Source: Anaerolineae bacterium (lineage in GTDB: Bacteria; Chloroflexota; Anaerolineae; Aggregatilineales; Phototrophicaceae). From it: a stretch of 64,000 bases of DNA. The notes below the pieces were generated by a model. The model did no database searches. It was not told the origin of the DNA and saw nothing but the letters and a program-made list of their open reading frames with translations. The first letter of the stretch is position 1, and every line of letters begins with the position of its first letter. The stretch covers positions 124,001 to 188,000 of the forward strand of contig JALHQT010000004.1 of assembly GCA_022841825.1 (NCBI GenBank), in the 5' to 3' direction. Positions 34,973 to 40,095 of the stretch are shown here, one piece after another. Both the position numbers and the translations under genes were made by a program.

Positions 34973-35428
34973 ATGAGTGATGTGCAAGCGCTCGTGGTCT
35001 CGGAAGTCAGTCGTCAGATCGACTCCCTCGGTGCGAATGAGTTCGCGGTCGAGATCGATGGTGAGCGTGTCAGCGGCGTCTTTCGTGTTTCCGAATTGAT
35101 CGCCTTCAAACTGGATGTCAAACCGTCCCTGACCAAGTACATGCAGGAGCCGTTCAAGATCGTCAAGATGCTCCAGCGCGATCCGCATTCGCCATTCAAC
35201 CGCTGGGTGCGTGAGACGATTGCCGCGCGTGACGACATCGCCCATCCGAAACGCCAGCTTTCGATCATCGCGGTGGATGACGGCGTGGAAACCCGGCGTT
35301 GGGTCATCAAGGGCGCGTGGATTTCCGAAATTCGCTACTCGGACTTCAACAGCAGCTCCGCCGAGCTGGTCGAAGAAACGCTGCTCGTCCGCTACGATGA
35401 TCTCGAGGTGGTGTGGCAGGGCGTCTAA
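34973..35428 (+). CDS. Phage tail tube (T4 gp19-like) family protein
   Basis: This 151-aa protein resembles tail tube and contractile-injection tube proteins: FAVEIDGERVSGVFRVSEL near the start, then RWVRETIAARD, KRQLSIIAVDDG, RRWVIKGAWISEIRYSDFNSSSAELVEETLLVRYDDLEVV. The W-x-x-x-G-A/W-I...D-F/L-N...E..LRYD pattern is the family hallmark. No sheath, baseplate or other tail gene is nearby, so it is either a remnant or has been recruited for another role. It follows the dehydrogenase by 18 nt. Confidence 0.65.
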   Translation: MSDVQALVVSEVSRQIDSLGANEFAVEIDGERVSGVFRVSELIAFKLDVKPSLTKYMQEPFKIVKMLQRDPHSPFNRWVRETIAARDDIAHPKRQLSIIAVDDGVETRRWVIKGAWISEIRYSDFNSSSAELVEETLLVRYDDLEVVWQGV

Positions 35429-35507: not shown

Positions 35508-36614
35508 TCAGGTGTATAAGCCTATACTGAAGACGATCCCCAGGAGAGACAACGCAAACGCCAGATAGACAAACCGCTGCACCTGGCGCTCGAAGACCGT
35601 CAACTGGCGGTCAATGTGCTTCTGATCAACCTGTTCCTTGCGGTGACGGTAGATCCAGTGGATGGGCCAGTGCAGGATCGGTACTGTGAACGCCGCCCAG
35701 ATCGCGTAGCCGATGCCCATGAGCAGGAAGACGGGCAGTCGGTTGTCACTGACAAACGCCAGCATGATGAAGGCGACCAGCGTTGCCCAGACGAACATCA
35801 TCAGCGTCGAGACATAACGCATCACCAGCCTGCGCAGATAGAGGACATGGCGCACCATCGAGGTTTCGGTGGTGGCAACTTCTTCCACGAGCTTACGGTC
35901 GAGCGTGCGCGCCAGCCCGAATGCTGTATTGAAATGTTCCACCTGCTTGCGGTCGGCGTCGGCGGGTAGTCCCTCGGTGGCGAGCAGCTCGTGCCACTGC
36001 CGCGAGCGGGGAATGATCTCGCCGTTGGTGTTTTCGACGGTTTCCTCAAAGTACTTCTCGCGTTTTTCCGCACTGAACGGGATCAGAAAATTGATGGCGG
36101 TCTTGCGATACTGATAGGCGTAGACGCGCTTCTTGATTTCGGGCGATTCGTCTGGCGAGAATGTGATGCCAGACAGGACGAATGACGGCGTGAAGAGCGA
36201 GCCAGGGAAGCCTGGGGTGTAGATCGTGAAATAGAAGTGAATGACATCCTTGAGCAGGAGGTACAAGCCGTAGAGGGGCATGAACGCCGAAAGCACGAAC
36301 GGGAAAGCCAGCGTCGCCATAGCTGCGATGCCGAATACCTGGTCTGATGTCGCCAGCGTGGGGAGTGTTTCGACCCAGAAGTTGATGAAAACGCGCAGTA
36401 TCCCGGTGATTTCGTCCTTGATGAAGAGGGGGAAAAGGATCATCAAACCCGCGCCGCTGACGAAGCTGACCGCGATACGATGCAGGGTCGAAAGGCGCAC
36501 TTCAGTGCGCTGAAGATAGGCGCGCATGGCGTTGCGTTCAGCCTCGGTCACGTCCCGTTCATGGTGGTCGTGATTGACGGTGGAGACTTGTTCGGTCTTG
36601 GGCATGGCGGACAT
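35508..36614 (-). CDS. Membrane protein of unknown function
   Basis: The 368-aa protein has a His/Glu-rich N-terminus, hydrophobic segments near 45-65, 95-130 and in the second half near 265-310, plus one at the C-terminus. A central soluble region (about 150-255) includes YQYRKTAINFLIPFSAEKREKYFE. No family is recognised. It is divergent from the metY leader region, so the 36615-36758 gap probably holds both promoters. Confidence 0.65.
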   Translation of the reverse strand: MSAMPKTEQVSTVNHDHHERDVTEAERNAMRAYLQRTEVRLSTLHRIAVSFVSGAGLMILFPLFIKDEITGILRVFINFWVETLPTLATSDQVFGIAAMATLAFPFVLSAFMPLYGLYLLLKDVIHFYFTIYTPGFPGSLFTPSFVLSGITFSPDESPEIKKRVYAYQYRKTAINFLIPFSAEKREKYFEETVENTNGEIIPRSRQWHELLATEGLPADADRKQVEHFNTAFGLARTLDRKLVEEVATTETSMVRHVLYLRRLVMRYVSTLMMFVWATLVAFIMLAFVSDNRLPVFLLMGIGYAIWAAFTVPILHWPIHWIYRHRKEQVDQKHIDRQLTVFERQVQRFVYLAFALSLLGIVFSIGLYT

Positions 36615-36758
36615 GGAGTGTTTGGTCCTGACTCATTGCAGCAACGTTTTCAATCTATGCTGATTGCCCAGGGGAGTCAATCCGTGGGTGATGAAGTTCA
36701 GATGCACACCATGATCAATCGCTTGCATTTGGACTCGTCTCGTGCTAACCTCGGTTTC

Positions 36759-36860
36759 ATGAGCAGTTTTTCGTCCCCCCTCGCCATTCATTCACCTGCC
36801 GCCGCGATGTGCTGCTGTATGTGTTGCATGATGATCACGGAGAGAACCCGGGACGCCTAA
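36759..36860 (+). CDS. Cys/Met-rich leader peptide of metY
   Basis: A 33-codon frame reads MSSFSSPLAIHSPAAA and then MCCCMCCMMI before TERTRDA and TAA. Five cysteine and four methionine codons fall within nine positions, far above chance. The frame ends just before a possible antiterminator and an intrinsic terminator, 176 nt before metY, the sulfhydrylase that incorporates sulfide. This is the layout of ribosome-mediated attenuation: stalling at Cys or Met codons would favour readthrough. The start could instead be ATG 36807 or further upstream; the ribosome site is weak. Confidence 0.7.
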   Translation: MSSFSSPLAIHSPAAAMCCCMCCMMITERTRDA

Positions 36861-36925
36861 CGCTCTTGCGATGCAGATCGCTCACAGTGCCAGTGAAGAG
36901 CCAGCCGTCCAGGTTGGCTCTTTTT
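36861..36925 (+). terminator. Attenuator: antiterminator/terminator pair before metY
   Basis: The terminator stem is AAGAGCCA (36896-36903) with TGGCTCTT (36915-36922), followed by five T's from 36921. GCTCTT at 36862-36867, directly after the leader stop codon, can pair with AAGAGC at 36896-36901 and so compete with the terminator. A small hairpin GCGAT/ATCGC (36868-36881) lies between them. A ribosome at the leader stop would cover GCTCTT and let the terminator form; one stalled earlier at the Cys/Met run would not. Confidence 0.7.
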
Positions 36926-36929
36926 GTTT

Positions 36930-36963
36930 GTGCGGCGCATGTGAGAGGGAGCCTGCGCCGCAC
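36930..36963 (+). promoter_or_regulatory. Strong hairpin between terminator and metY
   Basis: GTGCGGCGCA (36930-36939) and TGCGCCGCAC (36954-36963) form a perfect 10-bp stem with a 14-nt loop. It follows the attenuator terminator and precedes the metY ribosome site by about 55 nt. There is no T-run. It may protect the mRNA or form part of the leader control. Confidence 0.5.
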
Positions 36964-37036: not shown

Positions 37037-38353
37037 ATGTCTGAACAGAACGGTAACCACAAGGCTTTCGAGACGCAGGCGCTGCACGCGGGCTATTCGC
37101 CAGACCCCACAACCGGGTCGCGCGCGGTGCCGCTTTACCAGACGACTGCCTATCAGTTCCGCGATACCGATCATGCCGCCGCGCTCTTCGCCTTGCAGGA
37201 AATGGGCAACATCTATACGCGCATCATGAACCCGACCAACGATGCTTTCGAGCAGCGTCTGGCGGCGCTCGAAGGGGGCATCGCCGCGCTGGCGACTTCG
37301 TCCGGCCATTTTGCAGAGGCGCTCTCGATCCTCACGCTTGCCAACGCGGGTGACGAGTTTATCTCGACCAGCTCGCTCTATGGCGGCTCGTACACGATGT
37401 TCTCGCATACGCTGCGCCGCCTGGGCATCAAGGCGCATCTCGTCCAGGACATCAGCCCTGCCAAGATTGAGCCGCTCATCAATGACAAGACGCGCTTTGT
37501 CTATCTGGAAACGCTCGGCAACCCCAAGCTGGATGTCCCGGACTTCGAAGCGATTGCCCAGATTGCTCATCATTACGGGCTGCCCCTGATTGTGGACAAC
37601 ACGTTTGGCACGCCCTACCTGTTCAAGCCCTTCCAGTGGGGTGTTAACATCAGCATCCACTCGACGACCAAGTGGATCAGTGGTCACGGCTTGATCATCG
37701 GCGGCGCGATTGTCGATGGCGGCAACTTCGACTGGAAGGCGGCGAATCGCCATCCCAATCTGCTCGAACCGGAACCCGCCTATCACGGTGCGGTGCTGGC
37801 GGATGTGCTGGGTGCTGCGGCGTTCATTGGGCGTGCGCGTGTCGTCGGCTTGCGCGATCTTGGCGGCTCGGCTGCACCGTTCAACACGTTCCTGGCGTTG
37901 ATCGGTCTGGAGACGCTCGCCCTGCGTATGCAGCGTCACACCGATAACGCGCTGGCGGTCGCCAAGTGGCTGGAGAGTCACCCGGCGGTCAACTGGGTAA
38001 ATTATCCAGGTCTCAAGAGCCACGCCAGCTATGACCTGGCGCAGAAGTACCTGCCGAACGGCGCGGGCGCAGTCGTCGGCTTTGGCATCAAGAGCGGGCG
38101 CGAAGGTGGACGTAACTTCATCGATAACCTCAAGCTGTTCTCGCATCTCGCCAACGTCGGCGATACGCGCTCGCTTGCCATCCACCCGGCGACGACAACG
38201 CACTCGCAGCTCACCGCGGAAGAGCAGGGGACTGCGGGCGTGACCCCGGACTACGTGCGCCTCTCGGTCGGCATCGAGAACATCAGCGACATCATCGATG
38301 ATCTCGATCAGGCGCTGGCGGCGGCGGAGGGTGTCACCGTTCACCCGGTTTAG
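37037..38353 (+). CDS. metY: O-acetylhomoserine sulfhydrylase
   Basis: The 438-aa Cys/Met-metabolism PLP enzyme begins FETQALHAGYSPDPTTGSRAVPLYQTTAYQF, a typical MetY start. It has NPTNDAFEQRLAALEGG, VDNTFGTPYLFKPFQWGVNISIHSTTKWISGHG with the PLP lysine, and a C-terminal DTRSLAIHPATTTHSQL and VRLSVGIE. It makes homocysteine from O-acetylhomoserine and sulfide. AGGAG precedes the ATG. metX lies about 120 nt downstream and supplies the substrate. A Cys/Met leader and terminator upstream suggest attenuation control. Confidence 0.95.
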   Translation: MSEQNGNHKAFETQALHAGYSPDPTTGSRAVPLYQTTAYQFRDTDHAAALFALQEMGNIYTRIMNPTNDAFEQRLAALEGGIAALATSSGHFAEALSILTLANAGDEFISTSSLYGGSYTMFSHTLRRLGIKAHLVQDISPAKIEPLINDKTRFVYLETLGNPKLDVPDFEAIAQIAHHYGLPLIVDNTFGTPYLFKPFQWGVNISIHSTTKWISGHGLIIGGAIVDGGNFDWKAANRHPNLLEPEPAYHGAVLADVLGAAAFIGRARVVGLRDLGGSAAPFNTFLALIGLETLALRMQRHTDNALAVAKWLESHPAVNWVNYPGLKSHASYDLAQKYLPNGAGAVVGFGIKSGREGGRNFIDNLKLFSHLANVGDTRSLAIHPATTTHSQLTAEEQGTAGVTPDYVRLSVGIENISDIIDDLDQALAAAEGVTVHPV

Positions 38354-38471: not shown

Positions 38472-39674
38472 ATGGCGACGCTCAACGGACATCATGCAAG
38501 ACCCCACGATCCCCATTCCGTCGGCATTGTCCAGCGGCAGTACGCACACTTCGATGTCGTGCTGCCGCTGCGCAGCGGTGCCCGACTGGAAGGCTTCACG
38601 CTGGCATACGAAACGTACGGTCAGCTCAACGCGGAGCGCACGAACGCGATCATGATCTGCCATGCGCTTTCCGGGGATGCGCATGTCGCGGGTTATTTCA
38701 CCGACGACCCGGCTGAGAAACCGGGGTGGTGGGATGAAGCGGTTGGTCCGGGCAAGATGTTCGATACCGACCGTTATTTCGTGATCTGTTCTAACGTCAT
38801 CGGTGGCTGTCAGGGCAGCACAGGTCCCTCCTCGCTCGCCCCTGATGGTCGCCCCTACGCGCTGCGCTTCCCCGTCCTCACCGTCGCCGATATGGTTCGT
38901 GCTCAAACCCACCTCCTCGAATTTCTGAACATTCCCACCCTTTTCGCCGTCGCAGGCGGCAGCATGGGCGGGATGCAGGCGCTGCAATGGGCGGTCGATT
39001 ACCCGGAACGTGTGCGCAACGTCCTGTTCATCGCGGCGACACCCGTCTCATCCACACAGAATATCGCCTTCAACGAGTTGGGGCGGCAGGCGATCTACGC
39101 CGACCCACGCTGGAATCGCGGCGATTATTACGACAGTGCAGACCGTCCCGATGGCGGGCTGGCGGTCGCGCGCATGATCGGGCACATCACCTACATGTGC
39201 GAGGACTCGCTGAACCACAAGTTCGGACGCCAATTTCATGGGCACGACGGTTATGGCTTCACGTTTGAGACCGACTTCGAGGTCGAAAGCTACTTTCGCT
39301 ACCAGGGGCAGAAGTTCACCCAGCGTTTCGATGCCAACAGCTATCTCTACATCACCAAGGCGTTGGACTATTTCGACATCGCGGATGGCTACGGCTCGCT
39401 GTCGGCGGCGCTGGAGCGTCTGCGCGCTGAGACGCTGGTCGTCAGCTTCAGCAGCGATTGGCTGTATACGGCGGAGCAGGCGCTTGACCTGGTGACGGTG
39501 CTGGAACAGATCGGCAAAGAGGTTGAGTATCATCTGATCCAGGCGAATTTCGGTCACGACTCCTTCCTGGTCGAGGTCGAGCTGATGACCCGGCTGATCG
39601 GCGGCTATCTGGACAGGCAGTGGCAGCGTGAGCAGGCGCGTCTTGCGGAGACCCCCAAGCCCGATGTAAGCTGA
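38472..39674 (+). CDS. metX: Homoserine O-acyltransferase (MetX)
   Basis: The 400-aa alpha/beta-hydrolase-fold enzyme has LAYETYGQLNAERTNAIMICHALSGDAHVAG, WWDEAVGPGKMFDTDRYFVICSNVIGGCQGSTGP, and the nucleophile VAGGSMGGMQALQWAVDYPERV. Near the C-terminus are SFSSDWLYTAEQ and FGHDSFLVE with the acid and base. It activates homoserine, most likely as O-acetylhomoserine for MetY; some family members use succinyl-CoA. GGAG precedes the start. Confidence 0.95.
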   Translation: MATLNGHHARPHDPHSVGIVQRQYAHFDVVLPLRSGARLEGFTLAYETYGQLNAERTNAIMICHALSGDAHVAGYFTDDPAEKPGWWDEAVGPGKMFDTDRYFVICSNVIGGCQGSTGPSSLAPDGRPYALRFPVLTVADMVRAQTHLLEFLNIPTLFAVAGGSMGGMQALQWAVDYPERVRNVLFIAATPVSSTQNIAFNELGRQAIYADPRWNRGDYYDSADRPDGGLAVARMIGHITYMCEDSLNHKFGRQFHGHDGYGFTFETDFEVESYFRYQGQKFTQRFDANSYLYITKALDYFDIADGYGSLSAALERLRAETLVVSFSSDWLYTAEQALDLVTVLEQIGKEVEYHLIQANFGHDSFLVEVELMTRLIGGYLDRQWQREQARLAETPKPDVS

Positions 39675-39711: not shown

Positions 39712-40095
39712 TTGTCTGACCAACCTGTTCCGGTGATAAACCCAACCGAGCTGAAAGCGCGCATCGATGCGGGCACGGCTCCGCTGCTGCTGGATGTGCG
39801 CAATCCCGACGAGTGGGAGATCGCCAGCATCGAAGGGTCGATCAAGATCACGCTGCCACAGGTGCAGATGGCGGCGCAGCAGATCGCCTACTTTGGCAAG
39901 CCGCGCGAGGAAACGGTGCTGGGGCAAGTCCCGACCGACCAGCCCATCGTCGTGCACTGCCATCACGGGGCGCGCAGCGAGTATGCAATCATGATCCTGC
40001 GCGAAGTTGGCTACCAAGCAGAGAATCTCATCAATCTCGAAGGCGGCATCGACGCCTGGTCGGTCGAAGCCGATCCAAACGTATCTCGCTACTGA
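39712..40095 (+). CDS. Rhodanese-domain sulfurtransferase
   Basis: The 127-aa protein starts at TTG 39712, with GAGGG upstream. A single rhodanese domain is present: LLLDVRNPDEWEIASIEGSIKITL and the active-site loop CHHGARSEYA, where Cys is the persulfide carrier, then LINLEGGIDAWSVEADP. It moves sulfane sulfur between partners. It lies 37 nt after metX and probably shares its transcript, consistent with sulfur metabolism. Confidence 0.88.
   Translation: MSDQPVPVINPTELKARIDAGTAPLLLDVRNPDEWEIASIEGSIKITLPQVQMAAQQIAYFGKPREETVLGQVPTDQPIVVHCHHGARSEYAIMILREVGYQAENLINLEGGIDAWSVEADPNVSRY

Follow-up and report, generated by a model that had tools for sequence, protein, structure and literature searches.

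A small open reading frame (ORF) upstream of metY in the window, the 64,000-nucleotide stretch of DNA analyzed here, is very probably the leader of a ribosome-mediated (Trp-type) transcription attenuator that senses charged tRNA-Cys and tRNA-Met and controls metY, metX and a rhodanese gene. The locus contains a run of control codons, an intrinsic terminator, a competing antiterminator, a protector helix and a second pairing region (region 2) at a suitable distance from the run. Sequence comparison established these parts, their conservation among relatives, the compensatory pairing and the spacing.

The metY leader and its operon

The features of the locus are as follows.

36723 to 36728, + strand: -35 element TTGCAT, part of TTGCAT-N17-TAACCT, an architecture kept in 31 of 43 metY leaders
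36743 to 36751, + strand: extended -10 element, with TG at 36743-36744 and TAACCT at 36746-36751, at a conserved position before the leader AUG
36759 to 36860, + strand: leader ORF of 33 amino acids, translated as MSSFSSPLAIHSPAAAMCCCMCCMMITERTRDA followed by the stop codon
36761 to 36777, + strand: region 1 (GAGC...CGTCCC), which pairs with region 2 as the protector helix in the minimum-energy fold
36807 to 36833, + strand: control codons M C C C M C C M M, identified from the sequence and from pair enrichment in relatives
36851 to 36867, + strand: region 2, with GGACG at 36851-36855 and GCTCTT at 36862-36867, spanning the leader stop codon
36868 to 36881, + strand: small hairpin GCGAT-GCAG-ATCGC between regions 2 and 3, inside the antiterminator
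36895 to 36923, + strand: intrinsic terminator with stem GAAGAGCCAGCC/GGTTGGCTCTTT, followed by a T-rich tail
36895 to 36906, + strand: 5' arm of the terminator stem (region 3), followed by the loop GTCCA at 36907-36911
36912 to 36923, + strand: 3' arm of the terminator stem (region 4)
37037 to 38353, + strand: metY, O-acetylhomoserine sulfhydrylase (PF01053), the first gene under the predicted control
38472 to 39674, + strand: metX-like homoserine O-acetyltransferase of the alpha/beta hydrolase fold (PF00561), named from its sequence and its position beside metY
39712 to 40095, + strand: rhodanese-domain protein, likely in the same operon

The leader begins with ATG at 36759, ends with TAA at 36858-36860 and has the C-terminal part AAAMCCCMCCMMITERTRDA. 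The initial annotation had described a small ORF that carries the run M-C-C-C-M-C-C-M-M and ends at 36860, and translation confirmed it. Given the Cys and Met frequencies of eight proteins of the window, nine consecutive Cys or Met residues would occur at a given place with a probability of about 5e-15. The leader has no obvious Shine-Dalgarno site. Riboswitch and T-box readings of the leader were rejected because an Rfam scan of the leader and terminator returned no family match. The upstream gene (35508-36614) is divergent from the leader and metY, so this terminator does not close a different + strand transcript. At 34973-35428 (+), the window also encodes an isolated protein carrying a T4 gp19-like tail tube domain (PF06841).

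The antiterminator consists of two short helices, GGACG (36851-36855) with CGTCC (36906-36910), and GCTCTT (36862-36867) with AAGAGC (36896-36901). The duplex between regions 2 and 3 (2:3) had an energy of -17.8 kcal/mol at this locus (p 0.025). That GCTCTT pairs with the 5' arm of the terminator was already proposed in the initial annotation, and was borne out by the comparison of partners across loci given below. The GGACG/CGTCC half of the antiterminator, the promoter at the leader AUG and the protector helix are additions to it.

Conservation of the leader, its pairing and its promoter

The metY upstream regions were sampled from the genus, family and order of the genome that holds the window (Chloroflexota, Anaerolineae, probably the Aggregatilineales of GTDB). 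A Cys/Met leader with an intrinsic terminator preceded metY, or whichever gene opens the metY operon, at no fewer than 43 loci of the order, with 12 to 47 nt between leader stop and terminator. Where genes for JAB-domain (JAMM), ThiS or rhodanese proteins lay ahead of metY, the leader preceded those genes. Among 72 regions upstream of metY relatives, 32 contained a small ORF that stood directly before a terminator and carried a mixed Cys/Met run of at least four residues. Cys/Met was the only enriched residue pair, as each of the other 189 of 190 pairs reached at most 5 of the 72 loci. The leader-terminator count for Cys/Met in these loci fell to 0 on the antisense strand and in ten shuffled sets. 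Upstream of cysS, which has Cys leaders in other organisms and served as a negative control, no such leader was found nearby in 30 loci, and the single match of the scan lay more than 1 kb upstream. One genus of the family (g17) had a more distant metY, and neither leader nor riboswitch was found within 3 kb of it.

Some variations accompanied this pattern. At one locus (L022, G099:C51), metY was preceded by two complete leader-terminator units, one after the other. A Cys/Met leader, a terminator and a strong antiterminator also preceded metY in assemblies of Acidobacteria (L051) and Ignavibacteria (L073). The Cys codons in the runs of 46 units were mostly TGT (88/145), whereas those of metY at the same loci were mostly TGC (18/25; p = 0.004). 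This preference may make stalling more sensitive, or may serve the RNA structure.

The terminator stem covaried, with changes on both sides that kept the pair in 9 of 10 consensus pairs among 36 aligned relatives. RNAalifold predicted no pairs for the aligned antiterminator region, owing to the poor alignment of the sequences there. Since no single alignment shows the antiterminator, the evidence for the 2:3 pairing rests on a swapped-partner test, in which the duplex energies of native partners were compared with those of partners exchanged between loci. Among the metY leaders, this gave z = -7.4 for regions 2:3 and z = -5.8 for regions 1:2, with shuffled segments near 0, in loci that are related and hence not independent. 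The test has some background: a control segment beyond the T tract reached z = -3.0, and a separate set of non-metY leaders, whose native values were -5.8 for regions 2:3 and -6.9 for regions 1:2, included one shuffle out of three at z = -2.7. At a number of individual loci, the helix between regions 2 and 3 did not outscore shuffled sequence (p above 0.3). Segments that changed and yet remained paired included GGATGGGGT/ACCCATCC (L114), ACTATGGC/GCCATAGT (L024) and AGGAC/GTCCT (L141). The small hairpin between regions 2 and 3 had a predicted counterpart in the antiterminator state of most relatives.

Conservation of the Cys/Met codons and stems in relatives was the check that the initial annotation had set for its reading of mutually exclusive folds with the logic of Trp-type attenuation. 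Both were conserved, with compensatory change, and the comparison strongly supports this reading at the level of sequence. The spacing is consistent with it. In 41 of 46 units, region 2 began 10 to 25 nt past the Cys/Met run (shuffled, 12.9 +/- 3.2). Given the footprint of a ribosome, stalling on the run would keep region 2 accessible, and a ribosome that has reached the stop codon would mask it.

At the metY locus, 7 nt separate the end of the -10 box from the leader AUG, and transcription is predicted to start at about 36757-36759. A start downstream of 36860 would have spoken against the leader; the predicted one lies at its AUG instead. In 31 of 43 metY leaders, the best promoter ended 6 to 8 nt before an in-frame start codon (null, 1.9 +/- 1.3), and these 31 promoters mostly had a 17-nt spacer (27/31) and the extended TG (28/31). 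The same placement was seen in 26 of 35 non-metY leaders. The leader promoter escaped a simple promoter scan of the window, since its -10 box, TAACCT, resembles TATAAT too little, and it was recognized by its conserved position. With a -10 box only 6 to 8 nt before the AUG, the leader mRNA is probably leaderless.

The predicted sulfur regulon and the proposed mechanism

A covariance model was built from the metY leaders and searched in the genome of the window and across the order. In that genome the search gave one other convincing unit (L178, G000:C10:153488-153619, - strand), in which a Cys-rich leader containing VCMCPCGCCPEG, with a terminator, precedes a gene for a two-domain rhodanese. 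Across the order, the leaders preceded JAB-domain/ThiS/ThiF-rhodanese operons and genes for rhodanese-SufE, sulfite reductase and PAPS reductase, as well as a cysteine-synthase-like gene, DUF4395-like genes and some solute-binding proteins; target proteins without a Pfam run were named by eye. These targets suggest that the metY attenuator is a member of a sulfur regulon in the order. The model matches examined outside the order were terminators without a Cys/Met leader. The association of JAMM and sulfur-carrier proteins with MetY recalls the protein-thiocarboxylate methionine pathway of Wolinella (Krishnamoorthy and Begley 2011, cited in PMC5764234).

A tRNA-Cys(GCA) gene lay between attenuator and metY at two loci (L024:2857-2929 and L122:217-288, both -), and downstream on the same strand at two others (L020:85-158, -; L006:4104-4175, +). 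In two genomes of another Anaerolineae family, a Met-rich leader with a terminator (L311, G308:C38, MSMGMRM...; L312, G316:C191, MMSMVMRM...) was directly followed by a gene that reads as methionyl-tRNA synthetase. These leaders are possibly Met-only attenuators.

From the arrangement of the metY leader we infer a leaderless start, stalling in the run, the signal and the direction of control. RNA polymerase would start at or beside the leader AUG, and a ribosome would begin on the leaderless mRNA. When Cys and Met are ample, the ribosome would pass MCCCMCCMM, reach the stop codon and cover region 2. Regions 3 and 4 would then form the terminator and transcription would stop. Under a shortage of Cys or Met, the ribosome would stall in the run, its leading edge just short of region 2. 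The free region 2 would pair with region 3 through GGACG/CGTCC and GCTCTT/AAGAGC, and transcription would proceed into metY. If the leader is not translated, region 1 would pair with region 2 and the terminator would form. The attenuator would thus respond to both Cys and Met.

The same attenuator might sense cysteine alone, with the Met codons tolerated because stretches of ATG and TGY suit the RNA, or because a shortage of Met follows a shortage of Cys. We regard this as unlikely, though a serious candidate. Cys was present in the leaders of every target type, those of the sulfur-carrier operons in one genus were Cys-only or nearly so (CCCC, CLCCC, SCCACC), and the mycobacterial precedents are Cys-only (PMC1262725, PMC9094748). 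However, Met was as frequent as Cys in the metY leaders (mean 3.9 vs 3.5 per best 12 residues), and MM and MMM stretches recurred (L015, L022, L132, L146). The Met share of the run was 0.51-0.52 with metY in the operon and dropped to 0.38 without it (p = 0.01 and 0.003), a difference that may in truth be larger, since a model built from metY leaders should favor Met-containing matches.

It is very improbable that the nascent peptide acts in its own right, either by binding Cu(I), haem or a thiol oxidant through the run, or by arresting the ribosome upon a metabolite, rather than through tRNA charging. Peptides rich in Cys and Met can bind Cu(I), and the order of residues in the run varies while their density stays high. 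Against this, no motif was fixed (the runs ranged from CCCC to MCMCM to CMCPCGCC), the targets were sulfur amino acid genes and not metal or redox genes, and a tRNA-Cys gene belonged to the operon in some genomes. A chance ORF before an ordinary constitutive or riboswitch-type terminator can be virtually dismissed. The shortness of the leader, the missing Shine-Dalgarno site and the empty Rfam scan would fit such an ORF, but the recurrence, residue specificity, compensatory pairing, spacing and promoter placement argue against it, as does the lack of a SAM-I riboswitch at the leader loci scanned (0/20), where the only Rfam match was one tRNA.

Beyond the single locus, we lean slightly toward a two-input leaderless sensor as the global sulfur amino acid control of this one order of Chloroflexota. 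A shortage of either Cys or Met alone would relieve termination, and the sensor would stand before sulfur-carrier, sulfurtransferase, sulfite-reductase and metY operons, while sister families use SAM riboswitches.

Comparison with known systems

In families f3 and f6 of the same order, all 16 metY loci examined carried a SAM-I riboswitch (S-box, RF00162) ahead of the gene, which places metY under RNA-level control in those families. SAM-I differs from the metY leader in that it binds SAM directly, has no leader ORF and was absent from the scanned leader loci. The two arrangements point to an exchange of sensors, charged tRNA versus SAM, at one gene between sister families.

As stated in 2010, the leader peptides then known came from Proteobacteria and Actinobacteria alone, apart from a first one in Firmicutes (PMC2965389). 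Most of the leader-peptide attenuators described are from Proteobacteria and Actinobacteria, and some are from Firmicutes; the metY leaders would broaden this range to Chloroflexota, in the form of a regulon. The open literature that was searched reported no Cys/Met leader and no leader-peptide attenuator in Chloroflexota. Within that literature, the suggestion of the initial annotation that a mixed Cys/Met leader at metY may be undescribed in this lineage holds, and as far as we found, this is the first attenuator with a mixed Cys/Met control run. The leader model also predicts small ORFs and terminators missed by annotation, and the metY leader offers clean constructs for asking whether one leader can compute the OR of two amino acids.

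Cys leader ORFs were first predicted in Actinobacteria, without a conserved terminator hairpin (Seliverstov et al. 2005, PMC1262725). In mycobacteria, leaderless polycysteine short ORFs are cysteine-responsive, according to Canestrari et al. (2020, Mol Microbiol 114:93) as represented in PMC9094748 and PMC13236596, and translation attenuation has been reported for them (PMC13236596). The metY leader resembles them as a Cys-run short ORF before sulfur genes, with a leaderless start that is here a prediction. It differs in its intrinsic terminator and antiterminator, its mixed Cys/Met run, its phylum and the genes that it precedes (the metY operon).

The uORFC-8-2 motif before cysS in Rhodobacterales shares with the metY leader a Cys-codon leader ORF, an intrinsic terminator and predicted ribosome-mediated attenuation (PMC8632094). 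However, it has two tandem Cys codons only, targets cysS and belongs to alphaproteobacteria, whereas cysS in the order of the metY leaders had no such leader nearby in the 30 loci examined. The trp, his, leu and ilv attenuators of Proteobacteria follow the same four-segment logic of control codons, protector, antiterminator and terminator. Among these, the ilv leader is the one usually cited for combining several amino acids in a single leader. The metY leader differs from all of them in its two sulfur amino acids, its probable leaderless start and its place in Chloroflexota.
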